From assembly GCA_963930775.1 (NCBI GenBank), contig OZ005702.1, positions 310,001 through 374,000 of the forward strand: a DNA stretch of 64,000 nt, written 5' to 3'. This DNA comes from Cliona cf. orientalis. Lineage: Eukaryota > Porifera > Demospongiae > Clionaida > Clionaidae. The position numbers were made by a program, and so were the translations under genes. Of this stretch, positions 18,973-58,777 are shown in pieces. Positions within the stretch are counted from its first letter, which is position 1. Every line of letters starts with the position of its first letter. The notes under the pieces were generated by a model, which did not search any database, was not told where the DNA came from, and saw only the letters and a list, made by a program, of their open reading frames with translations.

Positions 18973-21900
18973 ATGCCTTTGGATAGAGAAGACGCTGAGC
19001 GAGCGCTGCAGCTGCTCTGGGAGCTGTTTCTCAACAGAGCAGAAAACGACGACCTCGGCCAAGAAAACGCCTACAAAGAACTCATCTCCGGGCTTCAGGT
19101 CTACCTAACTGACGTCCTCCCGGCCAGCCTGCCGTGCCTGCGAGTCAAAGGAGCCGATGGATTGATTGTCGAGATACAACAAGAACCGAACGCGCGGCCG
19201 CAAACTATCGATCTGCACTGCTCGGAAAGAGAGCAACTTGGCATCGTGTTGGATAGAGTCAACGTCAATGGAGGATGGGGTGGTGGCGGTGGCGTAAACA
19301 GCAATCAAATCAGTCCCATAATGGTGAGCCTGATCACTCCAAATAGCGCAGCTGCCAAGGATGGTCGGATGGCCAGAGGCGACCAGCTGCTAGAGGTCAA
19401 TGGCCACCCTCTCTCTCAGTCATCGCTCGAGCGTGCAAGGTAAATAAAAAAAAAATTATAATTTTCTTACCTCCATTGTTTACTCCTTTACGTGGGTTGG
19501 CTAATTTGAGCTAATTGGGTGTAAATTTCTGAAGCAGAAATTTTTAGCCAAGTTTTTGTTAATTTTTACTGCTCATACTTTGGAATAATTATAAAAATTA
19601 ATGACAATGTCATATTTTACATTAACTATGCAGGTGGCTTTTGGATCGTGCAGAGCGTGCTGGATATGCTCGTCTCACTGTCATCACATCGGGCCTCCAA
19701 CAAGGCCTCAAGCACTCCATGTCACGTGACTTCCTTAACAGCGAGAAAGTCTACCGCCACAAGAAATCCAAGAGTATAGAGTCGCTGAGTCGAATCCAGC
19801 AGACAGAGATTCTTGTCACGGCCGAGGTACACGAACGCCAGGCAAGACAACCACCGCCATCACGCCTCGTCCGTGGTGGTGTCCAGCCCCCCATCGGACA
19901 AAAGGCTCCACCCCCTCCGAAGAGGCCAAAGAGACAAAGCTCCGCCCATTCTTCTGTCTCCTCGTCATTTCGTATTCGCCCGATGTATGCTCCTTCCATT
20001 GGTAGTCGCCGTGACTCCAACGCTAGTCTTGTGTCGAGCACTGTTGAGACAGCTGCCTATATAGCAAGGACGAGTTTCAGGAGATCAGAAGCAGCTGCTG
20101 GTGTGGCAGGTGGAGGGTTCAAGGTGCGTGAGTGTGTATAAAAGTGAATTAATTTTTGATATAATATTATGATATTGTAAAAATTAATTATACCAAAAGT
20201 GTGAACAAAAATTAATGTGCAATGTGCAGTGTGTAATAATTACAATTTTTGTTGTACATTTACAATTGATCACTAGAAACGCAAGGTTCGTAAGATGCAC
20301 ATCATGAAGGGAGAGCGCGGCCTTGGTCTAAGGATTGTCGGAGGGAAGGGGTCAAAGTTCGGTGACATGGGAATCTTCGTCAACAAACTGGAGGAAGGTG
20401 GAGCTGCATTCAAGTGAGTCAAATCATGAGCCATAATATATATAATAATAATATTATTATAATATCCAATTCATCCTTTTCATCTTCCACAAAGCTTTAA
20501 AAATTCACTCAGATCTATTATTGCTGAAATATTAAATTTTTTATGTGAATTCTTTGCAGTGACAATCGACTCCACCCAGGCGATGAACTACTCATGGTGA
20601 ATGGGAAGAGTCTGGTAGGTCTTACACACAACGAGGCCGTCGATGTGCTCAAATCCACCCAGAAGCTGGTCCAGCTCGTGGTGGCCACAGAGAGCACTGA
20701 GGGAGACAGTGTGGCCAGCTCTCTGCAGTCCATCCCGGAAGCCATACTCACCAGAGCGTACCAAAGCCCTCCCCTCCGATCGTTCAGTCCACTGAGCATC
20801 GAGTCTTCTTCGTCCTCTGCGACAGTAAATCCCCCTGCGGCGGCTGCCATAGGCCCTGAGCTGCAGCAGGTGCCACAGAGGAACGCTTTCCTAAGGGAAG
20901 AGAAGGGGAGCGCTCAACTTGAGCTCCAGCTTAAAGTGGATCCATCCCTCCATCATGGCCAACCAAGGGAAGGTGGCGGTGAAGCCGAGACGAGATTTTC
21001 ATCTGTTGAAGACGGCAAAGTGACAATGGCCACTTCTCCAATGGAGAGTAGTGATCAGTTTGAGGTCGTTCGTACAGTGACATCTTGGGCGAGGACAGCG
21101 CCCAATCACAAAACCACGCCCCCTCCAAAACGGCCGGAGATCGATACCATCATCTATGTGAAGACAGAGGGGAAATCCCTTGGATTCAGTATCTGCGGGG
21201 GGAAGGGAAGCCGACAGGGGGATCTGGGAATTTTGGTGAGGAATATTGACCCCGAGGGCTTGGCAGCTCAGGACGGCCGGCTACGCAGGGGAGATGAGAT
21301 TCTGGACGTCAACGGCAAGTCGCTGAAGGACTGCACCCACAAGAAGGCTGCAGGCATTATCAGGGTAAGAGAATATAATATTATTGCATCAGCCATGAAG
21401 TTAAGTCAGGTCACTGAGTCAAACTTTTCAATAATACTAAAATAATGAAGTGCATGTGTTCAGCAGCTGAGCTGATACTAAATTTTGCGACCAATATAAT
21501 ATGCATCAGCCAAAAAAATTGTAAGTTTGTATAGCTGCAATTTTGAGCAGATCTTCCCATCTCCTCTATACAGAGTATGAAGTCAGGAGTCGTGACCCTG
21601 ACGGTCCGCTATGGTGACGGCAAACTGCCACGTGATTTAACACTCAAGCGCAGCACCAGCAGTGATGTCATCCTCTCCTCCTCTCAGCAGAACAGCCACT
21701 CCCAGGCAGATCGAGATAGAGGAGGAGGGAGAGTGGACAGAGAAACAGCTGCAGCTGCAGTTAGCGCTGGAAGATTTGAGGTGACCCTGGTTAAAGAAAC
21801 CGGGAGACCTATAGGGCTGCAGCTCACTGATGTGAAGCAGAGGGAGGGTGCTCTCCTCCAGGGCAGCGCCGCTACTGCAGTGGCCATCAGGAATATTGCA

Positions 21901-24900
21901 CCTAACTCTCCAGCAAAGAGATGTGGAAATCTCATGTGAGTATACAACAGTTATAGTTCATTTAGAAATATTTTCAAGGGGGTAGCATAGCGATAAATTG
22001 TATTATTAGGAGGGGTGATGTGATTTATATATTGGGATGAAAGTTCTGGTGTACCAAAACTATTTCATAGCCCCAGATGGATTTGTAGTTAAGTCCACGA
22101 ACTGCTAATACTTGCATGTAGGTGCAATGATCAGATTGTTGCTGTGAACAAGACGAACGTAGCTAACATGAAGACTGACAAAGTGAGGGCCTTTCTCTCT
22201 TCTCTCCCTCCCGGGCCAATCACACTGACTCTAGAGAGACCCAGCACTGAGACAGAAGAAGAAGCTACTACCACTACTACTGCACATCCTGGTGACATGG
22301 AGAATCAGGAACCGAGGAATGCGTAAGTGGAATGGAATGGATTTCAGTTGGAAATGGCCTGGGTATTATCCATGTAATGTGTGTGGATTACTTGTTGTGT
22401 AAACACATCAAAGCAACGGTAAACATTATGAATAATGCTGTGGATCTCAATTGATACACCGTGCGATTTATTATGATAAAATTAATAACACACGGCAACT
22501 TGTGAATAAGGATTTCATAACAGTGTTTAGTAATGTATCATAATATTATTTTGGTACACGGCGGCTTGCAGTGCCAAGTACTGGCAGAACTTCCCCTCCC
22601 AATTAGTCCTATTATAGTCCAGAGTAGCAGAACACTCACTGCAGGAAGTGTGTAGCTAGCTGTAGTGTGGATCGATTTCATGAAGGTCTGTCATTCCAGT
22701 GACGCCACGTTGATCACTCCTACACGCCTCGTGGGGCTGCTCTGTGTACATACCTCGTCTCTAGTGAGCCGTACAAAACATACATTCGATTCTCTGGGTC
22801 ATTCATTCATTCGTAGAGTTCTGTCATATTAATATTGTGTAATATCTGAGATATAGCCACAGTGTAGTATGGCCCGATCAGGTCATAGTATATACAGCTC
22901 TAGGTAGCTAGCTATCTGTATTTCTGAACCAACTCTTGTCTTGTTAGCTACTTGTTCATCATGACATGTACGTGGAATCCTAGCCATCAGTGTTTAAGGT
23001 TGTACTCGTGAAGAAATACTTGAATTGAGCCATAGCTAAAGATTTGTAAGTTTATACTACAAGTAGTATAGTATAATAGTTATTATCAGTATGAACTAGG
23101 TCATAGTTTGAATTTCCTTGTACAAGAATGTTGCTCTAATTTTTATCAATTTGTAGGAGAGTCAGTCAGTTGTCAGGCATCTAGCTATTTACACAAGAGA
23201 GGTCTCGCTAGATACTTGAAATCGATATAGACGTGTCGATTTTTGTACTTGTAGGTTGATGAATCAGTCTATCTCTACTTCTGCTCCTCCAACTAGTGAC
23301 ATGGCTTCAGAGAAGACAGCAGCTGCTGCTGCTGCAGTTGTCTCACAGGCCACTCCAGTCAGCCATAGAGAAATGGAGGCTATCTCTGAGAGTGACTCTG
23401 ACTCAGAAGGCGAAGATGCTGCCCCAGTAAGCTGTCTCTGGTGTTGTTATAACTATTAGTTAGTCACTATAATATTATTATCAGTATTGTAAGAACAAAA
23501 ACTATGATGTACACACCTTAGTCCTATCATCATCTGTAACGCTGAAAGCATAGATTATATATAGGGGAATATATAATCTATGCTGAAAGTGATCTTACTA
23601 GTCTATCTACTGTACTTGTTTATATCTTTGGGGAGTTCTATTTGTCTCATACCATGCAGGATATACCATTGGCCCCGCCTCCTACTGCTGGGGGATTAGC
23701 GCACGACTTGGAGGAGGAAGAGGAGGAAGAAATGGGACCACGCCTTAACCTTGTTGTACCACAGTCCAAATCATCACGTCCCGATTCCATGCTGATGACC
23801 ATCACCGGTTCGATTCCCATGTTCGAAACAGAAGAACTAGAGCAAGAAACATCACTTTTCACTCTCCCCGCTCCCCCTCCCTCACCTCCAGCTAGTGAGG
23901 ATGGTGAATTTGGAGAAGTGGAAGATGATGTTCCCCCGATAGTTCCAACGACTGCCCCGCCCCCAATACCAGCCAACGAGTCTCCAATGGAGATTGAAGG
24001 TCAAAGTTCACTCCCTCCTGATAGTTTATCACTTCTGCCATTGCTAGGTGAACCTCCTCAGAATGAACTTCCAACAAGTAGACCACCTCCCATTCCCATT
24101 CTTGATGATTCCATACTCCATTCACCGGATCTCCCATCACTACCTCCACCTTTACTTCCCGATAGTCCAGCAGCTGAAGTTAGTAAGCCTTCACCCGATG
24201 ACAACGATGGCGATGACGATGGCCACACCCCCCATGGCTACATTCAGCTAGAGGTTGACCTGAAAAAGCGAGCAAAGGGAGGACTCGGTGTCACCGTTGT
24301 GTCCAGCGGTGCTCCGACAAACGATCTATTTATGATTCGTCGGATCATAGCGGCAGGAGCAGCTGCTAAGGACGGCAGATTGAGACCTGGGGATCGATTG
24401 GTGGCTGTGAACGGAAAAAGCCTTGCTGGTCTACACCACGCAGCTGTCCTCCAGGAATTGAATAAAGCTCCGAAGGAGTGTCACCTCACGGTCTGGCGAG
24501 ATCCCACGGCTTCCGAGGCGGCAGACGCCACTCCCCCTAGCTACCCCACTAGCCGTCGCTCGGGAAGCCACTCAAGTCTCCTCACTGGATCGGACGATGA
24601 ACAGCAACAACAGGAGGGGCTCCTCGTAACAAAGAGATCGCTCTCGATAAGTAGTCTCGAAAATTCTCCCCTCGCTGTGGCAAAGAAGCTATCCGTGGGT
24701 AAGGGGCTTACTCCAAGGGGAGGGTCCCCCCTTGTGCACAACAGACTAAGTCTATCCAGCGCTATAGCTGCAGCGGCAGCTGTCGGTGGTACACCTCCAG
24801 CTGTGAATGGGGCATCATCACCACTCACAAAGAGATGGAGCGCAGAGGCGGCACTTTTCGCTGGACCTGCCGGAGAGCTGATGATGGATGATTTGACTCC

Positions 24901-27770
24901 ACCCCTTCCTCCTCCTCCTCCCCCTGCTCCCATCTCGAGTTCACCGATAAATCCAAGCCCTGGTGGTGAAAATTCGCCAATGGCGGGAGGGCAGACGCCA
25001 GAACTGTTACTTCACAGTGGTGGTGGAGAGAACGGAAGGAGGGATGATTTGATGAATGATGACGAGTTTTATCGCACGGAATCTCCGCCCATTGCCACAC
25101 CTCCTCAGCCACCTAGTACGCCGCCACCTCCCATTCCGTCAGCCCCTCCTCCCACCATGCATCGAGGGATGAAGCTGGACTTGACCAAGGTAGCAGCTGC
25201 CATGAAGGTAGCAGCTGACGATTTAATTAGTTCGTCTGAGGATGAAGAGGATAACGAAACTCCTCCCCCTCTGCCGCAGACTACACCCCCTCCACCTGCT
25301 ATAGCTAAAACTGAGGAAGAAGCTCCACCCCTGGCCCCTCCTCCTCCATCGCAAACCACACCTCCTCCTGCTGAGCCCGAAAAGGAAGCTCCACCTCCTC
25401 TGCCGCAGACCACACCTCCTCCTCCTCCGCCCACTGATACTGAGAAAGGAGCTGAATCTACAGAAGTTAATCGCTCAGTGAAAGAGGAAAAGAGTGTTGA
25501 AGTCGATCGTCCCAAGTCGCTTGGCCCCGTACCCAAAGGGAAGCGTCTAGAAGAAGCTCCATTTGAGATAGAGGTGTCCAAGGGAATCCTAGGAGGCCTG
25601 GGATTGACTCTGTGCGAAAATGAGCTCGGAATGATCGCTGTCAAGGCTCTGACCAATAGGAGCCCGATCACAAAAGACGGAAATATCAAGTGAGTTCTTT
25701 AGCTGGCTGGGAAATTTATCTCAAAGCTACTGTTTTAATCCACGTGTTTTATTTCTGCATTTATTCACTTTGTTTGATTTTTTTTTCAGGGTTGGTGATC
25801 ATCTCATCTCCATCAATGATGAGAGCTTACTTGGAAAGAGATTAGCAGAAGCTGAAGCCATTATCAAATCACTTCCCCGGGGAGCAGTGAGAATTGTGGC
25901 CATGGCCCCTCCAAAGAATGTCACAGGTGGGGGGATCAAGACTGCACCCCCAGCTGGGAAAAGCTTGAAGCCTACTCCCTCAACTGATGCCCCCCTCAGC
26001 TCCAAGGCTCCAGCAAGCAGTGTGTCAGAAACACCTTCTCTCTCATCTTCAGGACAACAGACAGTCGATGAAGAAGGTAAAAAGAAATTTTCACTAGATT
26101 GAATTTCCAGTAACAGTGAATAATTTATTGTTTTTAGGTATTGTCCGTGTATTGCTTCATCGCTATGGAGAGCTGCCACTTGGCTTCACCATAGAGGGGG
26201 GAAGTGACACGCCCCTCAAGTACGTCTACATCCAGTCCCTGTCCGTGGGATCTCCCGCCTCCAACTCTGGCCTCTTCTCAAGGGGGGACCAAATTGTCAT
26301 GGTAGGGGAGCACTGTCTCATCGGAATGACCCACCAAGAGGCGAGAAAAATCCTCGAAACAGCTCCAAGCTCCGTGGAAATTGTCGCACAGAGAAAGCAG
26401 TCCCCAAAACAGACCCCTAAGAGTTCCATTCCAGAAATACATTCCGATACTCCTACCAAGTCTCATTCCGGTTCTGAGGCAGAGGCAGACCTCCCTAATG
26501 CAGCCAGCGCCAATTCTCTGAATAATACGGATCATAAAGACAACAAACCTAGTGTAGCGGAGTCTGGGGGAGCCACTGATAATCCGCCGTCCATTAACGT
26601 GGTTCTTCCTCAGGAGCCTCCCCCTGGCATTATGATGGTGCCAGAGGAGCGGCTGACTGTGGAGTTGCACAGAACATCGACTGAAAAGCTTGGGCTCAGC
26701 ATCACCGGTGGAGTTGATAATCCCAACCTGCCCGAGATACATGTAAGTTGAAACATGCAGGCATAAAATTTATGATATACTGAAATTACTTCTTATTAAT
26801 TTGTGTATAACAAAGTTCTTGGTTGGGTAAATGGATACTAATTCACATAGCAAGTATATGCTCGTTCTTATTGCACCAACACTGGCAGAATAGAATAATA
26901 ATAATATTATTCTTATGTATAAATAATGCCATGGAAATTTTATTGTTCAACAGTCACCCTATTATTTTGTTGAAAGGTCAAAATTAATTTCTGGACCTAA
27001 TTAATTCATCTTTTTTTCTTTAGGTGAAGAAGGTTCTTCCAGACAGTGTGGCTGGCAGGGGTGGTTTGCTCAAACGAGGGGACAGGATCGTCTCCGTCAA
27101 CGGCAGCTCCCTTGACAGAGCCACCAATAAAATGGCTACCGATCTGCTGAGGAGCGCTGGAGATCATGTGACCCTTGTAATTGCCAGAAAAATCGGCCGT
27201 CGCATAAGCACAGTCGCCACGCCGTTTGAATCGAGATTGACATCAAAGCACGGTTCAGGAGAACACACTAGGCAGGGGAGCAAACGTGCATCCCCACAGC
27301 CTCAAAAACGATTGGCCAAAACCACTTCCTCCTCAGGAGAGAACTCACGGGAAGGGAGCCGAAGCCACACCCCTCCTGCGAGCGTCCGAAAACACAACCG
27401 ACGAATGTCTCTCGGTCAGAGCGGGGAGGTGCTCGCTTTCAGGGAACGAAGCACACTGCCTCGAAAACTCGGACCGAAGTTTGGGATACGTCTGGTGGAA
27501 CTGCATAAAGGCCCAACTGGACTGGGGATGCAAATACAAGGAGGGAAGGACAGGAATAATTCGCCGGTCACCGTTAAATTGGTGTTTCCGGGGGGCGTGG
27601 CTCACAAGAGTGGCAAGATCAATCCAGGGGATGTGATTCTAGAGGCAAATAGCGTCTCGTTTGAGAACTTGACTCACGCAGAAGCGCTGAAGACATTGAA
27701 GGGGTTTCCCCAGGGACAGGTGCATCTCATTATTAGAGACAGAACAGCTGTAGCTCACACAAGAAACTAA
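18973..27770 (+). CDS. Nine-PDZ scaffold protein (MUPP1/PATJ-type multi-PDZ)
   Basis: Eleven exons: 18973-19439, 19634-20123, 20277-20413, 20560-21364, 21574-21935, 22122-22322, 23255-23426, 23660-25689, 25790-26076, 26138-26742, 27024-27770; 6303 nt, 2100 aa. PDZ domains lie at about 78-175, 323-408, 557-645, 698-795, 1071-1158, 1510-1600, 1652-1740, 1819-1910 and 2004-2090. Each shows a GLGF-type loop (for example RGLGLRIVGG, KSLGFSICGG, LPLGFTIEGG, EKLGLSITGG) and the (R/P)GD.(I/L)..VNG motif; PDZ4 and PDZ7 deviate there. Residues 1-50 are helical and might be a degenerate L27. Linkers carry PPPPKRP twice and a proline-rich tract at about 1370-1490 with repeated PPPLPQTTPPPP. Such proteins gather receptors and polarity factors under the membrane. 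The order of PDZs matches no named family that I can assign with confidence. Confidence 0.88.
23547..23584. repeat. Perfect 16-bp inverted repeat hairpin with flanking direct repeat
   Basis: Arms 23547-23562 and 23569-23584 (AGCATAGATTATATAT and its exact complement) enclose a six-base loop. The 8-mer GCTGAAAG overlaps or flanks both ends (23541-23548 and 23582-23589). It sits in the intron before the large exon of the PDZ scaffold, 75 bp from the acceptor. Confidence 0.85.
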
Positions 27771-28079: not shown

Positions 28080-29293
28080 TTAGTGTTTCTGTGTTAGAAA
28101 GTACGCCAGTCCAATGCCGATGGACGCTATCACAGCGGCGACTGCCAAATAAGGAAGTGGGCCCTGCACACAACACACATGCAACACAATAGGTAAAGGG
28201 CAGTCTACCAATGATTATCACATAGGTAAAGGTCGTCAATGCCTCTACTACTCTCTACTCTACTCACCCAGCTATTGTCTTGTGATTTCTCCTTGGAGCT
28301 CTGTTTCGCTGGGTCCTTCTCTCCCTCCATCATCCTCCGGTACATCTGCCTCTCCTTGTCCTGCTGCATTCTTCTCTTCTGCAGAGCCTTATCGAGCTCC
28401 AGCTGTATCGCCCTCTCCTCTGAGTCGAGGGATTTGGCCTTCTCCAGCTGCCGGACAGCCTCATCCATCTCCCCCATCAGAGACAACACCTGCAGTAAAT
28501 TAGCACGGTTGAGTATATAATATATAGCCTAAACTAATTGTTAAGCCATCATTATGGCAAAAAAAAAAAAACTGAATATACATGTATAAATAATTATACA
28601 GCTTTGGCATTTTGACAATGTTTGTTTGCTTATTTTCAAGGAATTTGGCATTTCGACAATTTCTGCTTATGTTAAGGAAAATCAACTGCCAATATGTACA
28701 CTTTCTCTGTCCACTCACCTTTCCAGCTCTGAACAGTGCCTTGACGTTATTGGGATCTCTCTGAAGAACATCCTCACAGGACTTCAGCGCCTCTTTCAGC
28801 AAATCAACCTAGTTTGAGTGAGTGTGTGTGTGTGTGGTGTGGGGGGGGGGGGGGGGGGGGGGAGGTGGATGGATATGAAAAAACATGAAAATTTTACAGC
28901 TCTTGCAACATGTACTTACCTTCAGCTGGGCAGCTGCAATATTGTTCCAACATCTTATCTGCATGTCTTGAACTGGCTTGGTAGGCTCAGGGCCAGCTTG
29001 CTGAAAATAAAACAGATACAAGAAAAAAAAGATCAATTATCTTCTTATAAAAATATCATGCTTCTCTATAGCAAGTCTTAGTGTTTTGGTAATACTTAGA
29101 TACTATATGACATACCTCAGATTCTAGGTAGTTCTCTATCATGTTCAGACCTTTCTGGTAAGAGTGAATGGCTCTGTCGAACTCCTTGCGCTGAAACAGC
29201 TCATTGCCTCTCACCCTCTTCTGATCACTGAAACAGCAGTAGCAGCATACAAAAAAATTGATTCAGTCCTGGCTTATTTTTTGTGTCTATCAT

Positions 29294-29329
<36 letters not shown>

Positions 29330-30404
29330 TATATGGGACTCACACTAGTTTGAGTAGCTCTTCCTCAGCGATTGTCTCAAAGTCCAGAGGAGGCTGAACA
29401 TCCAGCAGCTCAAGTTCGTACGTGATATTAGCATCAGGTGGTATATCTGGTGACCTGAGGATCGAAACATTATTTATAATAATATTCTACTCTCAGCACT
29501 ACATGCACTGTAGCTTTATAATGAAGATCTAAGCAACACGTAGCTATTAACAGGGGAAAAAAACATAAAATTACAATATCATCTTCTATTACTTGACTTG
29601 ACTACACTGGTGCAACTACCTAGGCCTATTGCATCATCATGAAATTGTTTTTATTTCTTACTTTCCCAAACTGCCGTAAGCGAATCTTGAGTTAGTCTTG
29701 ACCTGTGCCATCTCCCCCTTCTCCATGAGAGGAACGACAAGATCCCAAGCCTGAAGCACGTCCCCGTCCCCCACTGTGAACGAGACTCCGCTGTGCTTGT
29801 CCACCGACTTACCCCCTTCTAGAAAGCCGCGGGTACGTACCTTCACACGGGACTGGGGTGTGGGCCTTGTTGATAGCCCCGCCCCTTTGCGAAGTATCTA
29901 GATTAAAGCACAATTTGGGATCAATCAGGAAAATTTCAAAACTTTAGAATTTCACACATTCTTAGTCTCACTTTAATTTAATTAGCTCTTTCTAACCTTT
30001 TTCATCAATTGCCCATTTCCCAGTACATCCTGCCAATCATCACCTCCATTTCCACTCTCTCCATTGCTAGCCGGCTCTTCTACAGCTTCAGCCGCCTTAT
30101 CTTCACTGCTTGAACCATTTTCGGCGCTACATGTAGGTGATTCCTTAGGAGGCGCTTCTACCACAGGTTCAGCCGCCTTATCTTCACCGTTTGAACCATT
30201 TTCGGCGCTTGGTGATTCCTCAGATGGCGCTTCTACCGTAGTATCGTTCACTGACTCGTGGATATCTGAAGCTGAAACGACACTAAAGTTTGTTACAGCT
30301 TCTGGCGATATTTTCCCGTCTCTTTGCGATTGATTGTTGTCTTCCCCATCTCCGTTCTCTACAGAATGCTCCTCTGATGGCTGGTTCGCTTCTGGTGTGG
30401 ACAT
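28080..30404 (-). CDS. FKBP8: FKBP8, membrane-anchored FK506-binding immunophilin with TPRs
   Basis: Eight exons: 30404-29997, 29897-29662, 29454-29344, 29227-29116, 29000-28920, 28808-28719, 28489-28268, 28163-28080; 1344 nt, 447 aa (human 412). Order: acidic N-terminus with an internal repeat (about 58-110), DDWQDVLGNGQL (human DDWLDILGNG), FKBP domain at about 137-250 (VSFTVGDGDVLQAWDLVVPL, SRFAYGSLG), TPR helices about 258-400 (ELFQRKEFDRAIHSYQKGL, NNVKALFRAGK), and a C-terminal TM helix (LAVAAVIASIGIGLAYFL) with a short basic tail QKH. The protein is expected in the mitochondrial/ER outer membrane facing the cytosol, where it binds HSP90 through its TPRs. Divergent to WASP, start codons 231 bp apart. 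Confidence 0.95.
28840..28863 (+). repeat. Poly-G run following (GT)n
   Basis: A TGTGTGTG stretch followed by about twenty G, in FKBP8 intron 5. Confidence 0.8.
29294..29329 (+). repeat. (GA)n microsatellite
   Basis: Near-pure GA run in an FKBP8 intron, 15 bp from the exon end at 29344. Confidence 0.9.
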
Positions 30405-30507
30405 GTCGGCAATTTCCTAACTTGCCCCTCAGTGCAGTGCTGAGTCACAGATGAATTCCAAATAGTGCGCATTAGTTTTCTGCAGACTCAGCAGATCGTG
30501 CTCGGTA

Positions 30508-30547: not shown

Positions 30548-30635
30548 TGGCGACCTTATCATGCTTCCTTGCCTTGGTATAAATTTTGAGGTTGAGAGAA
30601 GTTGTTTATTTCTAATACGCTAGTTTATCGTCAAG

Positions 30636-44194: not shown

Positions 44195-47100
44195 ATGGGC
44201 AGAAGAACAGTTCTCGCCGAATATCTGGTCTTTTCTGTCGCCGTATTGTCTTCGGTCGGCGGATGTTTCGCCATACCCTCTCAACACTCATCTATAGGTA
44301 AGACTACACTCTAATTCACACACTACCAACCATTCTGTTCGAGTTGAAGGCTTTTATCACTCACACTACTATTTAAATATACGGGGGTCACGCTTTTTTT
44401 GTTTAGTAACGTACAGTACGTTGACCGTTTCTTTCCGTTTTGTTATTGTTGTATTAAATTTTCAGTACACACTTGTAAACCAATGATTATTTTATACCAT
44501 ACCCTGGTCCACCCTACCTCTGTGTGTAAAGTAAAACATAATGGATATGGACTAGCTCTCAATTTAAATCTATCTTCACCTTTTATAATATGTACTGCGT
44601 CTATTAAACACTCCATGTGTTATGTATATCGATATGGGAGGGACCTTGTGTATTTAATACTAATCGACAAAGGGTATATGTTATGTTTTGTGGTATAAAC
44701 TATGATAAAATTGTAGCCCCCTAATATCCGTGGTGCTCGTCGAGTATGAGCATCCGTGTCATTTGATAGTGTTTTAGGTGGGTCAGGGGTCCAGGGGGGG
44801 GGGGGTCTAGGAAGGAGGATGTAATGATTTACCATGGCTGACCACAAAAGTGATCAAGTCACACAGAAAATGGTTTATTTTGTGGGGAAAGTCCTCCACC
44901 TGCTGTATTTAATTCTATAATACGAGGTAGATTGTACAGGTTTAACCCCTAAAGTGATTTGTGTAATAAATTTCTCTGAAATTTGATTGCTTTCTACGAC
45001 TCTGTACTAGAGAAATTTTTTAAAATCTTGGTACAATTTGCGGCCGGCTCCACCACTGTTTGTTGTTATAGTGACAACACAAGAAATGACGGTTTAATTC
45101 GCTAGGCGCCGACTTGCCTTTTCTGCCAACTATTTTCTGATTTACGACTCATTCTCAGCCCCCAACAAGGCATGGTCGGTGGGCAACCACTGCACTCTCT
45201 CTCTCTCCCGTGCCCGGCTAATGGCCAATCCAAGTCTTATCACCATTTGGCTTGTGTTTACATTGTGCGGAATCAGTACACCTAGTAACTGGTGTGTACT
45301 TTTCGTGTTAGTGCTAGCTTGAGAAGAGCAAAAGTGTTGGCCTAATTTCATTATTTTCTCATTCCATTGCCCTATAGACGTACATCCATACATACGTACT
45401 GTACGTACGTACATGTGCGTGCGTACATGTATTATGAGGTACATGTGTTGTGTATACATGTATATGTGTAGTCTTGGGGTGCCCCCCTGTATGGTAGAAA
45501 TCTTTTGGCCGTCTTTGTTGGTCATGGCCCATCCTTGACCTACATGTGTACAGTAGTTTCAATCTCCGGCCAGGTTAAACAGTTTGTTGACACTGGATCA
45601 CTTCCAGTTCGTGGTCATACCCGCATTCCCCACTCGTTGCCATGGCTACCCCCTTCCACAAAACAGTACTGAGTTGGCTGGACCTACCAAGTGGAATTCA
45701 CTTAACCAGAGTATATTAAATTTTTTTTATTCCCTCCCCTGTGTGGTTATTTTCAAGGACGTTCCAATCAGCTATGGCTTGGCTAGCTTAGAAGAACTTT
45801 TTAATCTTGACAAAATTTCCCCACCCAGTTACTATGTATTGGTAGCCAGGATGTTTGTGACCTTTGCACTGTATGAAAGCTGATAAGCTATAGTTTTTTT
45901 ATGCAGTGCTAGCTAGCTGTCTCCAGCTGCACTGTACTGTGCCTCCTTTGATGAAAGGTGAGGGATCCCTGCTCTGCACGTGCGTTGCATTAAAAAAACT
46001 GGACAATATCGATAATCCAATTAAGGAGCAGGGATGGAGAGAGGAATGGTTGTTGTGCACAATAGTCTTTCACTTGCTCATCACATGTAGTGCATCAGTC
46101 GTGCAGTTTGTGTTACCATAATTCCAAATAACTATTTTGCTGTACGTTAGTATACTGTGGCTTTTCTGATAATGTCACCGGTTATTGGTTGCTCTCTCTC
46201 TCTCTTCCTTCCACATACTCTTTATCTCCCCTCTAATATCTCTAAACATGATTCAGCTTCCCTTTGTGGTTGTGTGTGGCCAGCAAAGGGTTGAACAAAA
46301 CGCTGCCTCATCTTGAGCATGAGCCTTGCATGCCTGGGCCTGTAGACTTGAAAGAAGTTTCACAAATATTCATAGTGGGGTATGAGTTATTCATTGTTTA
46401 CTGCTACTACTGCTGACTTTCCCTGCTAGTGCCTGTCCAATTTTTTTCACTTTTATTAAGTGGGGGTACTTATGGATTTGCACTAAGTACTTTTTATGAT
46501 ATTCATGCTCTGCTATTCTTATTCATTGTTGATTGGACTATGGTGCATTTTAAGTGGGGACATTTGTCACCGTAGTAAAAGTACAATGTCCCACAGCTGT
46601 GATGTAATGATTTACATGTACGCCATGCCGTACCGTCCCATGCCCAAGCTGTCTCCAGGATGTCTCGCCTTTGCGTCTCTCTCTCTCTTACTCTCTCTCT
46701 CCTCTCCCCCTCCCCCCTTCTTCTTGAGGGGGCCGTGTGAGTAGGTAGCCATTTATCCATCAATGGAGCGTAGCTTGGAGACTCGAGACCACTCAACCAT
46801 AGCCCCTTATTGCCTCAGGCTACTCGTACAGCCCCTACTCCTAGTAAACTACACCTTAAGCTTTTGAGCTTTTGACCTTTATTATTTTTTTTTTTACAAA
46901 TTCCCTACGCTGACTGCGCTGCTGGTGGGAAGAGAGTGTGTGAAAGAGGTGGTGAGGTGCATTACGGTGGCCAGCATTGCTGGAGACTGCGTAGTGGTGG
47001 TCTGTCTGTCTACCTGTCGCACTCCGTGGTAGCTTCTCATAAACCTTCAAAGATATTCATATCGAGCGAGGCCTTTTCTCCCACTGTGCTGTGCATAAAT

Positions 47101-50100
47101 GCTTGAATTTTTCTCAAGCTATACAACTACACACTCTGCGTACATTACTTATGGGAAAAGGGGAGAATTCTGTTAATTAGATACAACTAAGAATGTACTT
47201 CTGATAGGAACAGGATATCCCAGAGACAATGTCTTGGGGGTCCGTCTGTCTGCCAGCCAAATCCATCATAACTTTCACGACTTCTCACGCGCAGCAAAAC
47301 AATATTCATACAGAAGCCGTTGACTGCCATGCCCGGTTAATATTTTATTGTTCTCGTTGTTGTTTTGTCCTGACTATTCTTTTATGGCTGCCAGTAAATC
47401 AAAGAAATGGAGTTAGTCAAATGATCCATTCTTCACTGATTGGGTACCTTTGAGTTGTGAGGCCACAACTATTCCGAGTATGCCAACATTACACATACTG
47501 CACCATCAATTAAATCAGTTCTGCCTGCCCAGACTAATTTGATTTATCGTTTGACTGTGGGTATTTCAGACTGCATGCAGGTGTACCCGGCACGGCATAA
47601 GCTACATAATAATATGCGTATATATATATCTACATACTGTGCACATGCATGCACCTACGTAGATGGGTAGGAGCTGCTAAGATTGTGCCCCACTGGTTTA
47701 GGGACGCCATAGTCTACGCTAATGGATTCCTTCTTTGAGAAAGGTTATGCAGCGTGCGGTGCCAGGCTTCTTGGTAGTAGCCTTTCTACTGTCTGCCATG
47801 GGCCAAATTTTTCCACACTTCTCTTCTCACAGAAAGCAAATGATGCCCCAAATGCTTCTCTGTGCTTCCATATATGCCCTGCACCCTTTTACTCCACTGG
47901 GCTAGCTACTATAGGCTGGGGTTATCACACCATCTCTGTTGTCTGAGTCGGATGGGTGGGTGGCCCATAACTGAGATATTTGAACAGCTGGACACAGCAC
48001 TGCTTGCTATATAGTTCTCAAGGAATCTGTCCATCTATCTATGCAATGTATGTGTTTATACAAGAGACTTACTTTGCTGCCCTGAGGCCGATTTCTTTGT
48101 GCATGTTACGATGTATGTGATAAGTTGCGCATAAACAAGCTGTTTGTGGTGAGCCCCTTACAAACGATGGGAGCAGCTTCCGACATGATTAAAGCTTAGA
48201 GGATCTCCTAGAGGGTGGCATGTTCTGGATGATGGATAAACAGAGCCAGTGTACAAAGGCAACTGCACTTGGATAAAAGCACCTTTGCAGTAGAAAAGCA
48301 GCTATATACTGTAGGAATACTAATAAAACCGCTGGTGTAGATATTGATTTTAAAAAGCCATAGACATGAACGGCAGGGGGTGTAGTCTAGAGGATGCCTA
48401 AATTTGCATTATTTCTATGATGAGCAACACTGGGATGGTTTCACGTAATTAAGAATGTTTATTTGGGATTTTGTTACGAAATATGAAACTTCTAATCTTT
48501 GTACCCTCTTGGCCTAGCTCTGCGTGCTTGCACGTACACGTCGCTTTTTTCTCGCTTCTCTAGGTGTGTCCGCTTCGTTAATTTATACGATTTACACGTC
48601 AATTGTCGTAAATGGCTTCATGGCACGTTTCCATCCAACCAATGAGATGTCAGTATGACGACTATTGATCATATTATCAGCCGTTGTCACTCCTCATAGG
48701 CCCAAGTAGCCAAATTAACTAAAACTATTAAGTAACATTTCTCTCTCATGATTCGTAGCCAACAGTCAAATTAATCCAACAGAACCTAGCTTGCCAGCAA
48801 CCAGCCGCTTTTAAAAGGAATACCCTTACCCAAAGCAGGTGCTAAACCAGTTACCTGTTTATATTTTCTCAAATATGGAAAACATTTTAGTCCAGTCGAT
48901 GGTGCCGGGCTAGTGGTGGGCCAGATTTGGGGTTCCTCCTCCTCCTCAGTGTGCGGTGCCACTCAGTCTGATCACTAAGTGAAGGAAGGAGAGTAACTGC
49001 ACCCAATTGGCCGCGCGCGGTTAAGCGAGCTGGCAGACATTCCATTAAGCTTCTGGCTGCTAAAAACTCTGTGGGTGGATGTGTACGTAGATGGCTGGGA
49101 TGGTACAGGTGGGCGTGTACCTCTCAGATTATTGTGTGTGCTATATTTATTGCGGCTTCTATTTTTAGTTGATGATTGATAATTGTTATATTGAAGGTCG
49201 TCCTAGCAACATGGAGGTTATGCATGACTCAATTTGGGATTCAATTTCTGTGGCATGAATATTTCATAAAACCATTCATTGTTATATACGGAAGATGAGA
49301 AATGAGTCTATAAAAGTGTGAGAGTGGGGTGTGCTGCATGTGCTAGGGAGAATTTTGGTGTGGTGAGTATCATTAAGTCTTTCCTCATTCTTGCGTAGAG
49401 GGAGAAACAATTCTACATTTGTATGGAGTGCGACAACGGTATAAGAATTATGTGTTTTCGTGAGAAAATTCTAATTTTATCAGTGTTTCCTTGTTCCTAG
49501 CAAGAAGCAGATCTCTAAGTGCATACTGAATTCTGCATACTGCAGCCTAGTATATTATTATGCGTACAAATTGAAAAACTCACCCACTAATATTTGTAAA
49601 GCATATTTGTGGTGGTGTACGTGCGTTCAGGGCCGGCAAGCGCAACCAGGTGTTCTGAAATTTTTCCATCCATGGAATTTGTGCAATTCTCAAAATTTAG
49701 CCTATTAGACGTTAAGTGGAGAACGAGAGAACACACACAATTACGTAGTAACGATAATGTAATTATTACGTTTTGTTGATATGAGTAAATTGAGCGTAAC
49801 ATTTTTCCTTGCATACCAACAGGTTCATTTCGTGGTGGATTTCATCAAGTTGACTTGGAATTGAAAGAAGGAGCATCGCTGAAAGTAGAGCTTAGCTTCA
49901 GAACTGCTAGCTACGATTCCGGTCTCCTCTTTCTCGCTGCTCAACGGAATCACTCTGGTTACCTGGCAGCTGGGCTGAGAGATGGTGCCTTGGAGATTGT
50001 TCTGAAACGGAACGATGATGGGCAGACACCACCACGAGTCCTGCACTCCTTTGATTTCATACTCCATAATACATCAACCCATCCTTCAGACTGGCATAGT

Positions 50101-53100
50101 TTATCTGTGCAGTACGATCAGTCTCTGCAGCTGTTATCTGTCACCTTAGATAACTCCATTATTCACTCACAAACTCTTACCCTAGGTGAAGCTTTTTCTA
50201 GTGTTTTCTTTTCTGGAATGGACTCTTTTCTCTCTCATCGACTGTTTCACACTCTCCCTCTCGCTAGCTTCTTTATCGGTTGTCTAGCAAATGTATCTGT
50301 CGATTCCATGCCTGTCGTCTTTGTACCAGATCACCAGAATGGAATAGAACTTGGATGCTGTCTGATTCCAAGAATGCCATCATGGTGTTTCCAATCTTCT
50401 CATTCCAACTTGTCCATTCCAACACCCCTCTATCACAATGGATCCTTGCTAATCTCATTCAATCTCGAACCCAGTGCCAGTGGACTCGTCTTATTCACAC
50501 AAGCAGAACCATCTCAATCTCTACAGCTTTACCTGTCCAGTCACAACCTCTCTCTCGTTATTTTATCCTCTCAAGAAAACAAGACGACAGAGACACTCCT
50601 CAATTGCCCTGAGCTTCCATCTGCAAGAGAGGTGCACTTGGTCGAAATTACATTGACATCAGAGTCTATACGTTGTTCCATTGGTGGTAGTACTGCTAGT
50701 GATATGCAGCTTTCTACAGAACTGTCTCTGATGTTCACAGACTTGATACTGGGCAGTGCTTTTGTGCATGGTGTGCACCATCCCTCATTTGAAGGCTGTA
50801 TCCAACACTTTAAACTCAATGGTGCTGAGGTTACGCCGTCTTTGGGTGGAAACCAACTAATACAACCGCCTCCTCGGTGGGAGGAGTTGACCTTTGACCT
50901 ACATCCATTGATCGTAGATGAGGGAGATAGGGTGCGCTTGTCCGAGCAGAACGTCAGAATCACATTTCCTGAAGAATTTTTTGCCGACGATTTCACCGTC
51001 ATGTACCAGCAAGACATCAAGAGATCTCTTCATATCAGACTAGTGGAGGGCCCTTACCAAGGTCACTTGGTTCAGGGCTCCTCTGGGAATGCTGTTTCCG
51101 AGTTCACCTACAATGCCCTGACCAGTCAAGATAATGAAACACAGATATTCTACCAACATTCGGAAATCAGCTCGGGCAATGTCACTGATGAAATTGTGAT
51201 AAAACTGTCTGTAGAGTGTGGTGGCAGCACTGCAGCTGCTCACCAAGTCCTGTTCAATGGAACACTGGAGATAACCATAATTGAGAGCATCAATATTCCA
51301 CTCGAAGTAACACAAAATGATGCGATGTCCATTGCAGCCGGTACTCGTAGAGTGATAACCTCCAACCATTTGACCGTTATCAGTCTAGTGAGCCCTATAC
51401 ATGTATCTAGTGAAATCACCTTTGCTCTCCAGTCAATTGAACTGGTGGCCTGCGATGGCACCAGTTGCAACGAAGAGAGTGGAAAACTTGTCAAGACTTA
51501 CAACCCCAACTTACCGGTCATTTATTTCTCCCAGCAGGAGATCGATGAAGGAAAGATCTCATTTCAGCACTACGAGAGATTTGGCGTGGAGCCAGTGGTC
51601 ATCCAATTGCTTGCCAGCACCAACGGAGGATCGATAAATGTCACCATTGACGTACACCCATACAATGGTCGCATCAAATATCTCTCCCCACCGGGCACTT
51701 GTCTATTCGTGAAAGAGGGCAGCACAGCAGTGGTCGGGCCTAAGCATCTGAACACAACCACTAATTTTCAAGATCAGGATCCTACTGTTAACTATGACAT
51801 CATCGTTGAGCCCATGTATGGCTATTTTGAGAGATTCATTACGTATCATAACATCACCCCGGACTGGCATCCACTCACGAGTGTAGCACCATCCACCAGT
51901 GGCAGTCAGATCAGTGATGTCCAACACTTCACACAGGAGGATGTAGACAATGGTCACGTCAGATACATCCACAACCATTCACTGACCCAGGAGAGCGTCC
52001 AGTTTCGTCTTCGCAGCTCAAATCTCACAGGAGACGTAGAGACTCTCTGTATTCAGATTGTACCAACAGCCATCCTCCTCGATTCACATATCTCCATCGT
52101 TGCACAGCTAATTCGAGTGGATGAGAGTGGATCTGTACAAATTAACAGGGGTTTACTCACAACCACGTCCTCCCCAACAGAGGACGCCTTCAACGAGGTG
52201 GTGAGTATTGAACAGATGGGCATCGTCTACATCCTAGAGGCAGTACCCTCCCATGGGAGTCTGTTGATCAGTCAGAGAGAGCTGGGTATTGGTGATAATT
52301 TCACATTCGACGAAGTGAGCTCTGGCCTCCTCAGCTACGAGCACAGAGGAACAGAAGACCACAGTGACAGCTTTAGGATCTATGCCGTCGCCACAACGAC
52401 ATCTACTCTCCTGATCAAGAGCCCTGATCCCAGCCCAGTTGTGACGGTGAACATTGCCGTTAACCCCATCAACAACCATTTACCAGTTTTGAGCGATAAC
52501 CTTGTACCAATCAACCCCCCAGAAGGTGGCTTTATTGTGATCACGGAAAATCACATCCAGGTCACGGATGAAGACAGGCCACACGAAGTCCTCACCATAT
52601 TCATCCGTAGAAGGGGAGAGACCCACATTGGCTTCTTTGCGCGCAGAGATGCTTCGGACAAGCCTGTGTCGAGGTTCACAATGCGTGACGTGAGAGAGAG
52701 ACGTGTTATCTACCAGCATCGTCTCAACACAAGCGCCCCACTCACTCAAAATCAGATTGTGCGTTTGGACGATGGCCTCAAGGATCACTATGTCAGAGGG
52801 GTGAGTGCTGCTATAGATTGATTGCTACTGTGACAAAATTAAAGTATTATCATAATGGGGATTAGGAGACTGAATGACTAATATGACTAATATGAATTGA
52901 TATGTACTTCTGTTATCACATAGAAGGTTAAAATAAGTAATATGCTTGAAATGGTTTCATGGTTTTGCCCCCTCCCAATTTGATTTATTTATTTTGTTGT
53001 CTTCTAATTCTATGCAGCCAATTCGGATAGAAGCCGAGCCACGGAACTTGACCGTGGAGATATCCGGCTCCAACTGTCTTGCCAACATTGACGCTGCCAC

Positions 53101-56100
53101 TCCAGACCAACTTACCGTCAGTATAGACTACTCCATGTTTAGCGTCATGCTGGAGGACCACCTGGGGCAGGACGGAAACCTGGTGCACGAGATAGATGTC
53201 TTTGTTTCACCCCCTCCGCGGTATGGTCAATTCAACAATCGAGTGAGGGGTACGAGAAATATCACGACGTTTAAGCTTGTGGAGCTCGAGCAAAGAGAGA
53301 TTGAGTATCAGTTTGCCAATCAGACTACCACCACAGATAGTGACAGATTCTCGTGGGAGTTTCGGTATGGGCACAGCATAGAAGGCCCATTCCCATTTCA
53401 GATCTGTATCATTCCCGTTCCCATTCCCGAAATCGTACATGTGGGTATTGCGTCGGTGGCCTTCGGGGGTATGGTCAATCTTGACTCCTCCCACCTGCTA
53501 GCAAGAGACAACCGTGGCGGTCCAGGGATGAACGATTCCCTCGAATATCGCATTCTCATTCCTCCCCAGAACGGCACACTCATGAAACGAGATACACCCA
53601 ATATCGTAAAGTTCACACAGACGGACGTGAATGATCGCCGAGTGCTCTACCAGAGCAGACATGCGGACACACACAGTACCATGCAAGATCGCTTCACGTT
53701 TGAAGTGTGTACCACTTACAGATGTACCGAGCCTGAGACTTTTGTCATCAATATCAATCGTAACAATATAACTGTTGTGAATACAGGATTTGAAGTCAAA
53801 GAGGGAAGCATGCACCGCATTACAACAAACGAGTTGAACATTCTTGCCCCCAAGGATTCTAAGGGGCTGCGTTTCTTCGTCGAGCAGCAACCTGAGCATG
53901 GTAATATCACCTTGAAGACTGACATTAGGGTAATCAACAAAGTCCAGTACTTTGATTTAGCTGACGTCGAGACCGGGAGCATCTTGTATATAAACGACGG
54001 CGATGAATTTCTTCATGACAGCTTTGAGTTCACCGCAATAGCTCAATATCTCAACGAAGTGACTAGGAACTATGGAATTCTCCAATTTTCTGACATGGCC
54101 AATATCACCATTCTGCCTGTCAATGATAATCCTCCTGAAATTGTACGCTCACTTGAGAGCTATGATGTTGTCATAGGTGGATCAACAAACATCCCTGGGT
54201 CACTGCTGAGTGCTCACGATTATGACAGTGATATGCATGATGATGACATCGTCTGGCAGCTGCAATTTAACAGCCCTTGGAATGGTTACATGTACTTGGA
54301 TGAAGATCGTGGAAGTGCACATGCCATATCCAATTGGACAGAAGGAGATCTGAGACGAAACCGGCTCTATTATCGAAACGAAAGGGATGGCTCAAATATT
54401 GATATTATTATTTACACTCTCTCTGATGGTTTCCATACGAATGCCGGCGACCAGGATGAACAGCAGATCTTTCTGAATCTGCAGGAGATCATTTTTGAAT
54501 CCACTGCCACAGCCAATAGTCGAATTCGTGTTACGGAGGGGGAGAGCGTCACAATCACTACAGACTACCTCAGCTACCGAGCTTCAAACGATAACAGCCT
54601 GGGAGATGAAGATTTTATCTATACAGTGGATATCCAGCCTAACCATGGCAGTCTGGTGTTCAATGGAACCGTTCTTCAGACTGGAATGTCTTTCAATCAA
54701 CAAAGCCTTCGTAATGATTCACTAGTGTACATCCATGACCACAGCAACAGCAAAACTGACAGCTTCTGGTACAAACTCAAAGTTATTGATCGTACTCGTG
54801 AAGATAGCTTTTTTGAATTTCAGATCGATATCGATTCTGTGGACGATGACCCCCCGGAGGTGACATACATTCAAGATCCCCTGTTTGTGGTTGAATTGAG
54901 CCACGTTCAAATTAACAATTCAGCCTTAGAGATTGATGATTTAGATGCGGGTAATGACGTTGAATTTGATGAGATTGTCTGTACCCTTGAGAAACATCCA
55001 AGTTATGGACTCCTATCGAGGGACAGGTTTGGGAAGAAAACAATCCACACCCGTGAGTTCACTAAGCTGGACGTCGAGAGGAACCATCTAGTGTACAATC
55101 ACACTACTCTCGGTCACTACGAGGACCAATTCACCTTCAAGGTCACCGATGGAATTAACCCCCAGAATGAAACATACAAAGTAAATATCGTCATTCTACC
55201 GGAAGAGGTGTCTGTGCGAGTGAGCAATATCAGTGTGGATGAAGGCCAGAGAGAGTACTTGGAGCGAGAGGACTTTGTCATCGATCATCCATACCTGAAC
55301 ACAGTTGCAGGACAGTTTTCTGTCATCCGATATCCCACCAGCGGTGAACTGAGAAACATAATTACCAACGAGAAAGTCATGCATGCTTTCACCGTTGAAG
55401 ATCTGGCTAGGAAATTCATCGTGTACCAGCACAATGGCAACGGAAAGGAGATTACCAGTGATGCCTTTGAGTTCTTTTACGAGTCGCTCCAACCAGAAGG
55501 ACTACGGAGGCGCAGTTCTCCTAAGACAGTCCACATCAACATCAAACCTGTTGATGATGAACCTCCCATTTTTGGCAGATCTGAAAACAGAGCCGATATT
55601 ATTTCGGGATCAGAGATCCTCCTCAACGAGCGATACCTGAACGTGACTGATGGTGACACTCCTCCTGAGCAACTGAAATACACCTTTACTTTTAACATCA
55701 GAGGGTACATTGCCTATACTAACGATACCAAGCAGAGCATCCAATGGTTCACCCATGCCGATGTAATGGCAGGTCGCGTAAAGTTCATTCACGAGATGGA
55801 TCTGACTGGAAACATCCTGTTTAACGTCACCGATGGCAAGCAGTATGCTCTGACTATGCTTGATATCACCACGACCGAGCTGGAAATTGACTGCGATGAG
55901 GAGAGGTGGAGTGAAGTTTCTGTGACAGCTGGAGGGGAGGTGAGGATCACAAATGACCACATCAACTGCCGCATCTTGTACGACGTACTGGTGCCCATCA
56001 CGTTTGTGGTGAGCGGGCCTCCTCAGCATGGCAACATCATGGTGGACGGAGAGGTGAGAAACAGATTCACCATGGTGGAGGTGAACGAGAACAAGGTGAC

Positions 56101-58777
56101 GTACGTTCACACCGATTTCGAGTTCTGGGAAGAAGAGGAGCGTCTCAACATGAGCGCCGTAGCCAATTACGTCGAGCCGTTTCTGTGTGAAAAATTGATT
56201 CACATCCGATTCCCTCAGAGCAACACTAGTAGTCTGTTCGCCGTCAATGAAGGACTCCAACTGGAAGAAGGGGGTGTGGCCTGTCTTAATGAGACCAATC
56301 TCGACGTGCGTAACCTCCGCTATCGTGCCTGGCTAGCCAATCGGGAGGCAGTCCCATGGCCGAGTGACTTGGTACCAGTGTTTGATGTAACCGATGGACC
56401 CAGGAATGGAACTCTATTCCTTCTCGATTCACCATCCACCCCTGTTGCTAATTTTACGTACACAAATGTGAGTCAAGAAGTCTGCTACCAGCATTCTGAT
56501 GAGGAGAAGTTTGAGGATTCCATTCACATCCGGCTCCATTTTGTGCCCAGGGAAAATCTCGCAGCTTCACTAGTGTTCACTGGAAATCAGAGTTATCTCA
56601 GTGGAATCAGTGACATCATTGCAATCAATATCACTCCAGTGAATGACCAACGACCAATAGTTAAGACAAATCGGAACCTAGCGCTCGTGTTGAACTTCAC
56701 CCATAGAATCACTGCGGACGATTTGTGCGTTAAGGACCTGGATAGCCCTCCCGAGAATGTGACATTTACCCTCTTGTCCCCTCTCCCCTCTGGTGCCAAC
56801 CTACTCTTGAATGATCAGGCTTTAACTATAGGTAACAACTTCACCCAAGCAGACATCTTTAACGATCGGTTGAAGATTGAGCCAGTTTCTGAGACCACGG
56901 AGCAGCAGTGGTTTAATCTTAATTACGAGGATGAAATTGCAGTGAAGAACAAAGTGTACATCTGGTTTAATGTCAGTGGACACTTCCTGAGAATTCTTCG
57001 TGCTGGAGAGGTGACTTACCAGCAGAATGCGAAACGGATTTTGATCGGAAGAGACAACCTTGACACGGAGACAAATGGCGATTTTAGAGATACGGTCTTC
57101 AAAGTGAGATCTGGCCCAGAGATTGGAAAACTACGTGTAGGTGAGGAAAGAGCTGCCCAGCAGTTCACTCAGATAGACATCAACGAAGGGAGGGTGATAT
57201 ATATTCCCCCCAGCACCGATACCAGCGGCTACTCTGACAGTATCTCACTTGTTGTCACCAATCACAATCAGAGAAAAATTGTCAACCTGACCTTCACCTC
57301 ACTAGTGTGGGGAACCGTTAGAGAAGACGCTAGCGTAAATCTCACCTCCAGTCTCTCGCGGCCCCTCCCTAGTGACTTGCTCAAGCTTGGACCAGACAAA
57401 CCGCCCGAGATTAAAGTCATACAGAGACCTACATACGGCAGATTGGAGTTCATAACTGAAGTAGGGGAAGGAGTCGGCTGGCGTGGTGATATGTTCACAT
57501 TTCACTACGACGATCTGATAAGAGGATGGGTGAGCTACAGGTGGGACTACACGCAGCGTGTGTCGGGAGTGGAGCTGACTGACAACTTTACGCTGCTGGT
57601 TGTTGCTGAGGGAATGCAACCAGGCAAGGTTACTGTAAGTCTAAAGGTATATCCACCTAAAGATTACCAGCCATCATCTACGACTCTTCCAGGAGTCGTC
57701 ACTCGTACAGACCCTCCACGAATGCCTGATCAGGCACCGCGCACTGGTAATGATGAGCAGGGTTTTCCTCTTTATACCCTTGTGCCGATTCTTGGGATTT
57801 TTGTCATCTTGTTGATCATCATTGCCGTCATCATTCTGTTCTGTACCACTCAGCAGTCTAGAATACGTAAGAAAGTGAACATAGGCATAGCACGACCCCC
57901 TCCCATGTCAGTTCGAGTTCGACGGTGCTATCCATGGTCTGTAGATTCCCACGCTCCTCCCAGCACCCAAGCCATGGCCCCGCCCAACTACAGCTTTGAC
58001 CCCACCTCTCATAGCGGCGACGAAAGTGTTGACAATGAAGAGCACAACAACTCAGAGACTTCTTCGGGATTTTCTGAGCCTTCTCCGAGACACAGCCCCG
58101 TCCAACAGCGAGCGTTTTCCATCCCCGTACACCGCTCCCAGCAACTAATCTCTTCGCAGTCTAGCGCCAACCATATCGCAGCAGCGTACGGCCGGGGAAC
58201 AACCACTCCATCTCTTGCCCCTCCTCGTGCAAGATCCAGAGCAAGCAATGTCTCCATCACTTTTTCCAGCCGGCAATCAATGGCGGCGTCTGACGTGAAT
58301 ATTGAAGATTCAGCGTCGCACTTTTATTGCCACTCCCTCCCTGGACCCCAGCAACATGGAGTAGTCGTTCCAACACCAATGAGACCTGCCTCTCATTCAG
58401 CATTTAGTCGAGTTCCCAGACCCCTCCCACCGATGGAGAGCGGCTACAACTCGGAAATGTTCCCCCACGGAGCTGGTGACTCGGGCGTGCTCAGTAGAGC
58501 AGGCAGCTGTGGAGACTATGACGAAGATTACGACCTCCCAGATTTCCCAAGTGCTGATGTCGACGTTCCTCTACCTGCGTCTTTGAACGACAGACTGAGC
58601 GGGAGCATCGTGGTGCCGTCTTATCGCGTGGACGGAGACGCCGGTCCTGGTCCAATGGAACTCGGAAAGAGCAGCTTAGCCATCGGAGAAGATTTCTTGG
58701 ACTTGAACGATCCGAACGTTTTACAGCGATTAAGATCACCAAACCCAGTCTTGAGAAAAGAGGAGTACTGGGTCTAA
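44195..58777 (+). CDS. CSPG4: CSPG4/NG2-like transmembrane proteoglycan
   Basis: Three exons: 44195-44297, 49823-52800, 53018-58777; 8841 nt, 2946 aa. The ATG is in a perfect context (ACCACCATGG). Order: signal peptide (1-27), two LamG domains (about 38-190 and 200-355), then about 15-18 CSPG repeats to about residue 2580, each closing on a phrase such as FTQEDVDNGHVRYIH or FTKLDVERNHLVYNH followed by D.F.F. A single TM helix follows at about 2612-2638 (TLVPILGIFVILLIIIAVII), then a basic stop-transfer (RIRKK) and a tail of about 305 residues ending SPNPVLRKEEYWV. Human CSPG4 ends TPNPALKNGQYWV, a PDZ ligand. Many N-glycosylation sequons. The human tail is only 76 residues, so this one is much longer, with Ser/Pro-rich stretches. 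Confidence 0.95.
44298..49822 (+). other. 5.5-kb first intron of the CSPG4-like gene
   Basis: By far the largest intron in the window. No gene, RNA gene or element could be supported. It contains a poly-G run at about 44796-44806, an alternating TACG/ACGT stretch around 45389-45430, and TC-rich patches at 46190-46205 and 46674-46702. Short open frames here have no coding character. Confidence 0.6.

Follow-up and report, generated by a model that had tools for sequence, protein, structure and literature searches.

A CSPG4-like receptor gene with a putative PDZ ligand, its candidate GRIP and MUPP1-like partners, and a probably incidental nine-PDZ neighbour

The 64,000-nucleotide window analysed here (C14:310001-374000, contig OZ005702.1, of the 216.8 Mb genome of Cliona cf. 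orientalis) carries the gene for a large CSPG4-like receptor and, upstream of it, genes for a WASP protein and for a scaffold with nine PDZ domains. An earlier note on this DNA had suggested that these form a receptor-scaffold-actin module whose genes may be physically linked. We consider it likely that the receptor is a relative of CSPG4/NG2/Kon-tiki anchored through PDZ domains, with a GRIP orthologue on contig C5 and a MUPP1-like protein on C15 as its likeliest anchors, and that the nearby scaffold is an incidental neighbour.

Stop-to-stop open reading frames (ORFs) searched with Pfam place the PDZ exons at 18961-27767 and a gene with LamG and Cadherin_3 domains at 49789-58774, both on the forward strand; the scaffold ATG lies at 18973 and the receptor stop codon ends at 58777, in agreement with the span first reported. 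Exon models were made with a simple purpose-written gene finder trained on the window itself, so end exons are uncertain, and its run over the whole window, which merged genes into one chain, was used as a guide only. The signal-peptide exon of the receptor has a good donor site and is in phase with the acceptor at 49823, and the sole stop in the joined protein is the terminal one. The receptor ORFs contain two Laminin_G_2 stretches near the N-terminus and, above the Pfam threshold, 4 plus 10 Cadherin_3 (CSPG repeat) stretches, and thus at least 14 repeats; human CSPG4 has about 15. A single transmembrane segment, called like the signal peptide by reading the sequence and not by a dedicated predictor, lies near residue 2615 and leaves a cytoplasmic tail of 311 residues. 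By its domain architecture and tail the protein is most likely an orthologue within the CSPG4/NG2/Kon-tiki group. Among the papers listed by literature searches that combined CSPG4 with sponge or early-animal terms, those on cancer, vesicles or glycobiology mention sponge once each and the others do not name CSPG4, which does not make the gene undescribed in sponges.

The C-terminus of the receptor (the peptide considered for PDZ binding is RSPNPVLRKEEYWV) resembles that of human CSPG4, as had been claimed. When it is aligned from the last residue with the human sequence given in the earlier note, 7 of 13 positions are identical, PNP and YWV among them; one of 2,000,000 random 13-mers of the receptor-tail composition matched as well, and of the receptor's 2934 ungapped 13-residue frames only the C-terminal one scores above 4. 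The receptor has Ser-Pro where the human tail has Thr-Pro. A full-text literature search with the exact human tail string gave no match. The mouse NG2 C-terminus is NGQYWV in a passage of PMC4560422, and a passage of PMC6164575 has Thr2314 of NG2 phosphorylated by ERK. This degree of similarity suggests a meaningful relationship and an ancient PDZ-coupled receptor. As a type I protein, it would present to the cytoplasm a hydrophobic PDZ ligand preceded by Ser-Pro; outside the cell it would most likely bind matrix or neighbouring cells, and inside a PDZ scaffold, likeliest the GRIP orthologue or the MUPP1/PATJ-like protein, would tether its tail to cortical actin and the polarity machinery.

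GRIP1, syntenin, MUPP1 and OMI are named as NG2 binders in part of PMC4560422, and excerpts of PMC5494508 and PMC8762229 describe, respectively, signalling from NG2 to RhoA through MUPP1 and Syx1, and fly Kon in a complex with Grip; a 2007 paper with a Perdido-Grip title is cited by both PMC4095857 and PMC5004445. The C5 locus has the GRIP pattern, with seven PDZ domains laid out 3+3+1 and GRIP1 matches in order for its first PDZs and for PDZ4 to PDZ7. In searches of PDB sequences its PDZ4-5 finds GRIP 1p1d as best match (116.5 bits), PDZ6 the GRIP chain 1n7e (65.8 bits) and PDZ7 1m5z (56.2 bits), and conversely a GRIP1 PDZ1-2 query has its best genome match in the first PDZs of this locus (42.5 bits). 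Which GRIP PDZ each of the three chains represents is our assumption. On C15, the sole L27_2 candidate reported for the genome is closely followed by a long array of PDZ domains. Comparison with PDB chains covered the first three of its PDZ domains: the top two single-domain chains for PDZ1 are MPDZ 2o2t (60.7 bits) and InaD-like 2db5 (55.1 bits), and PDZ3 matches InaD-like chains at 65-71 bits and MPDZ 2iwn at 60.3 bits. A home-made PDZ hidden Markov model (HMM) gives 14 hits at this locus, 11 of them before a stretch, kinase-like by eye, that the gene finder merged in. Downstream of the MUPP1/PATJ-like gene lie that stretch and another, similar group of PDZ exons; in addition, hits at C15:3140903-3141518 score the same as those at C15:960951-961566, and a further copy may lie there.

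The nine PDZ domains attributed to the window's scaffold were recovered by Pfam and by the home-made HMM, some of these very domains being part of its seed. Searches of PDB sequences with all nine, the best 60 matches of each being considered, yielded no collinear series of MPDZ/PATJ or GRIP best matches; the matches are scattered over InaD-like/MPDZ, GRIP, DLG, PTPN13, scribble, IL16, LIN7, GOPC and syntenin chains. Pfam at E 0.01 found no L27 domain in the first 180 residues or in the whole model, to which further upstream exons may belong. The lack of a detected L27, the mixed PDZ matches and the better candidate on C15 together led us to reject the scaffold as MUPP1. For a harmonin-like N-terminal domain, a single-sequence AlphaFold model of the scaffold was uninformative (mean predicted local distance difference test score 41.6). 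A 745-bp stretch around PDZ4, intron included (window 21651-22395), has an 86% identical inverted copy at C8:502814-503565.

Table 1. Positions of the receptor, its tail, candidate partners and other genes. Positions are those of the window unless a contig is named.
Feature	Position	Strand	Details
CSPG4-like receptor	44195..58777	+	2946 aa; exons 44195-44297 (signal peptide), 49823-52800, 53018-58777
Receptor C-terminus	58736..58774	+	SPNPVLRKEEYWV; PDZ ligand YWV at end; last receptor exon
GRIP orthologue	C5:1659784-1671961	-	seven PDZs, layout 3+3+1
MUPP1/PATJ-like gene	C15:940297-about 960000		L27_2 candidate just upstream of long PDZ array
Nine-PDZ scaffold	18973..27770	+	2058 aa, 12-exon model (gene finder); nine Pfam PDZ stretches, E 9.7e-121
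Scaffold exons 1-6	18973-19439, 19634-20123, 20277-20413, 20560-21364, 21574-21935, 22122-22322	+
Scaffold exons 7-12	23255-23426, 23660-25689, 25790-25926, 26053-26076, 26138-26742, 27024-27770	+
Receptor partner gene	C14:1788784-1799605		1.43 Mb from window receptor; head nearly identical
FKBP-TPR gene	28080..30404	-	447 aa, hydrophobic C-terminus; FKBP_C 1.2e-15, TPR_1 2.9e-15; FKBP8-like (presumed name)
WASP	30624..33198 (ends approximate)	+	WH1 2e-29, PBD 1.9e-15, WH2 8.4e-9, acidic end
Purple acid phosphatase-like ORF	33438..35297	+	Pfam PF16656, PF00149, PF14008
Second purple acid phosphatase-like ORF	35538..37418	+	Pfam PF16656, PF00149, PF14008
CID-domain proline-rich gene	39879..43854	+	1097-aa model; CID 4.6e-31; RPRD2-like (presumed name)
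Homeobox gene	59407..61309	+	PF00046 1.2e-22; gene model; directly downstream of receptor

The scaffold and the receptor are 16.4 kb apart on the forward strand when the distance is taken from the signal-peptide exon at 44195, joined in phase, and the spacing of 16 kb given before is thereby upheld. Five predicted genes separate them. WASP is one of these, as the earlier note had it: a whole-genome WH1 search matches window 30852-30992, and the protein also has PBD and WH2 domains (the version scored for domains was in part assembled by eye). The other four, of which the FKBP-TPR gene is on the reverse strand, are additions of the present analysis. How much the nearness of scaffold and receptor means can be gauged from a genome-wide PDZ search, in which 85 hits fell into 42 loci, eight of them, the window's own included, with three or more hits (hit counts per locus are lower bounds). 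Of random positions, about 0.16-0.22% have a locus of at least three hits within 17-25 kb, and 0.85-1.2% have a PDZ locus of any size that near. If an animal genome holds hundreds of proteins with PDZ ligands, chance alone should yield about one such pair involving a large scaffold and a few involving any PDZ gene. Nothing pointed to a segmental duplication that took in both scaffold and receptor, although a diverged copy could escape (39 of 875 candidates were scored); the 39 scored candidates for the scaffold-WASP stretch are 38 short dispersed repeat copies and the 745-bp copy on C8, and the receptor stretch, unlike the scaffold-WASP stretch, has its copy on C14.

These results bear on two readings in which the nearby scaffold would matter. 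That it is the dedicated partner of the receptor, the two genes being linked through co-regulation or as part of an ancient module to which WASP belongs, appears very unlikely. It is true that receptor, WASP and scaffold all lie on one strand within 40 kb and that few random positions are this close to a many-PDZ locus; but the known partner families lie elsewhere, the genes in between include phosphatases, a CID gene and an FKBP gene on the opposite strand, and the receptor-scaffold pair was chosen after the fact. The residues at alphaB1 speak on both sides. Scaffold PDZ1 to PDZ9 carry, in order, L, H, H, T, H, L, H, N and H, and the Leu of PDZ1 and PDZ6 would, by the usual class rule, suit the Tyr at position -2 of a class II ligand such as the receptor tail, so that the scaffold might yet bind it; the GRIP orthologue, however, has four domains (PDZ3-6) with hydrophobic residues there (I, L, L, V). 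The class rule is not decisive; it is the first PDZ domain of MUPP1 that binds NG2, and PDZ1 of the MUPP1/PATJ-like gene has His at alphaB1. It is also unlikely, if less strikingly so, that the scaffold is a divergent co-orthologue of MUPP1/PATJ or GRIP and for that reason a natural partner: single scaffold domains do match InaD-like/MPDZ and GRIP chains, but among many others and in no collinear order, and no L27 domain is reported in the model. Of the module proposed earlier, the components stand, in that a CSPG4-type receptor with a PDZ ligand, WASP and multi-PDZ scaffolds are all in the genome; the linked module finds no support, nor does the nearby scaffold as a MUPP1-type partner. With relatives of the known partners on other chromosomes, and with some of the genes in between having no evident tie to receptor signalling, the many-PDZ gene is probably a mere neighbour.

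A further alternative is that the tail owes its resemblance to human CSPG4 to convergence on a generic hydrophobic PDZ ligand. Short C-terminal ligands arise easily in evolution, and the 311-residue cytoplasmic tail contrasts with one of 76 residues in mouse NG2 (in a passage of PMC4560422). Identity in a fixed register that takes in both PNP and YWV, and that random draws so rarely equal, nevertheless makes convergence improbable. Inheritance of the tail, with anchorage by the GRIP orthologue or the MUPP1/PATJ-like protein, is the reading we prefer, and beyond the Leu residues of scaffold PDZ1 and PDZ6 several results weigh against it. In a single-sequence phmmer search at E 0.01, the first 1163 residues of the receptor match no PDB sequence, so the case for orthology is one of architecture and tail; such a match is not by itself a hallmark of the family. 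Thr2314 is presumed to be the T of TPNP from a rat NG2 length of 2326 residues. For the GRIP1 PDZ1-2 query, the second-best match in the genome, close behind the C5 locus (42.5 bits), is PDZ9 of the scaffold (41.7 bits), which also favours co-orthology of the scaffold. The L27_2 candidate on C15 scores about 20.4-20.5 bits (E 5e-4), below the Pfam cut-off of 27; and for the C15 PDZ domains DLG4 gives the highest score, some further chains also rank above those of MPDZ, and PTPN13 and GRIP1 are close, so that sequence scores alone do not settle the identity of this gene.

The receptor has a partner gene on the same contig. A single alignment block with 92% identity spans window 49784-55325, and from 49823 on 5070 of 5447 aligned bases (93%) are identical; the shared head comprises the LamG domains and the first CSPG repeats. 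The ratio of nonsynonymous to synonymous divergence (dN/dS) is 0.35 overall, and dS is 0.07-0.19 over eight successive 200-codon blocks but 0.79 over the final 143 codons. Such a jump at the block's edge, from about 0.1-0.2 to 0.8, suggests a recent partial duplication or gene conversion. The rest of the partner gene differs: its transmembrane segment is another one, its last ORF lacks a PDZ ligand and terminates in CDLKLEDLQ, its tail has the tyrosine motifs YERI, YEQV and YEVI, and comparison of the two tails gave no convincing match (best blastp E 0.075). Its signal exon lies outside the duplicated block, with one candidate at 1784869 in the 10.7 kb scanned. The partner gene could be a pseudogene or an artefact of the assembly, or else a receptor that joins the shared head to another tail. 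In the last case the two might act as paired receptors, the same ligand being read into different signals through dissimilar tails, but we regard this as quite unlikely; the main point against it is a 2-bp frameshift in the second LamG domain of the copy, in which the other coding indels are in frame. A third Cadherin_3 locus, with a 1149-residue frame and possibly FRAS1/FREM-like, lies at C12:9136500-9143700.

As to the remaining sequence of the window, an 881-residue proline-rich ORF at 41209-43854 was ruled out as WASP, since it belongs to the CID gene and WASP lies at about 30.6-33.2 kb. Elsewhere the WH1 search gave a weak match on C18 and a second C14 locus (1930001-1943000, reverse strand) that was rejected as a WASP copy, being Homer-like by eye. 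The last predicted WASP intron contains a dispersed repeat of about 160 bp (window 32929-33089) with at least 38 copies of 85-95% identity on many contigs. The homeobox gene presumably resembles BarH/BarBsh, judged by eye, and an NK-cluster context is possible for it. A GRAM-domain gene occupies window 1402-8979 on the reverse strand, and PB1-domain exons lie at 62919-63402.

If the DNA is that of a sponge, the CSPG4 PDZ ligand and the Ser/Thr-Pro site would predate the divergence of sponges from the rest of the animals, and GRIP and MUPP1-like proteins, kin to the known binders, would have been present that early too. The NG2-GRIP and Kon-Grip pairing thereby becomes testable as an ancestral link from matrix to cortex that existed before muscles and glia. 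Linkage to the nine-PDZ gene adds little to this.

Compared with known systems, the scaffold of the window shares with MUPP1 (MPDZ) and PATJ a multi-PDZ make-up with long linkers, but it has nine PDZ domains that are not collinear with theirs and no detected L27; GRIP1/2 and fly Grip are likewise multi-PDZ proteins, but with seven domains as 3+3+1. The WASP of the window has the same WH1, PBD, WH2 and acidic end as WASP/N-WASP, and we saw no notable difference. The receptor, finally, has the features of CSPG4/NG2 and Kon-tiki/Perdido, namely a signal peptide, two LamG domains, a long array of CSPG repeats, one transmembrane segment and a C-terminal PDZ ligand; its cytoplasmic tail is longer than that of mouse NG2 (311 versus 76 residues), and the pattern PNPxL...YWV is common to its tail and that of human CSPG4, with Ser-Pro in the one and Thr-Pro in the other.

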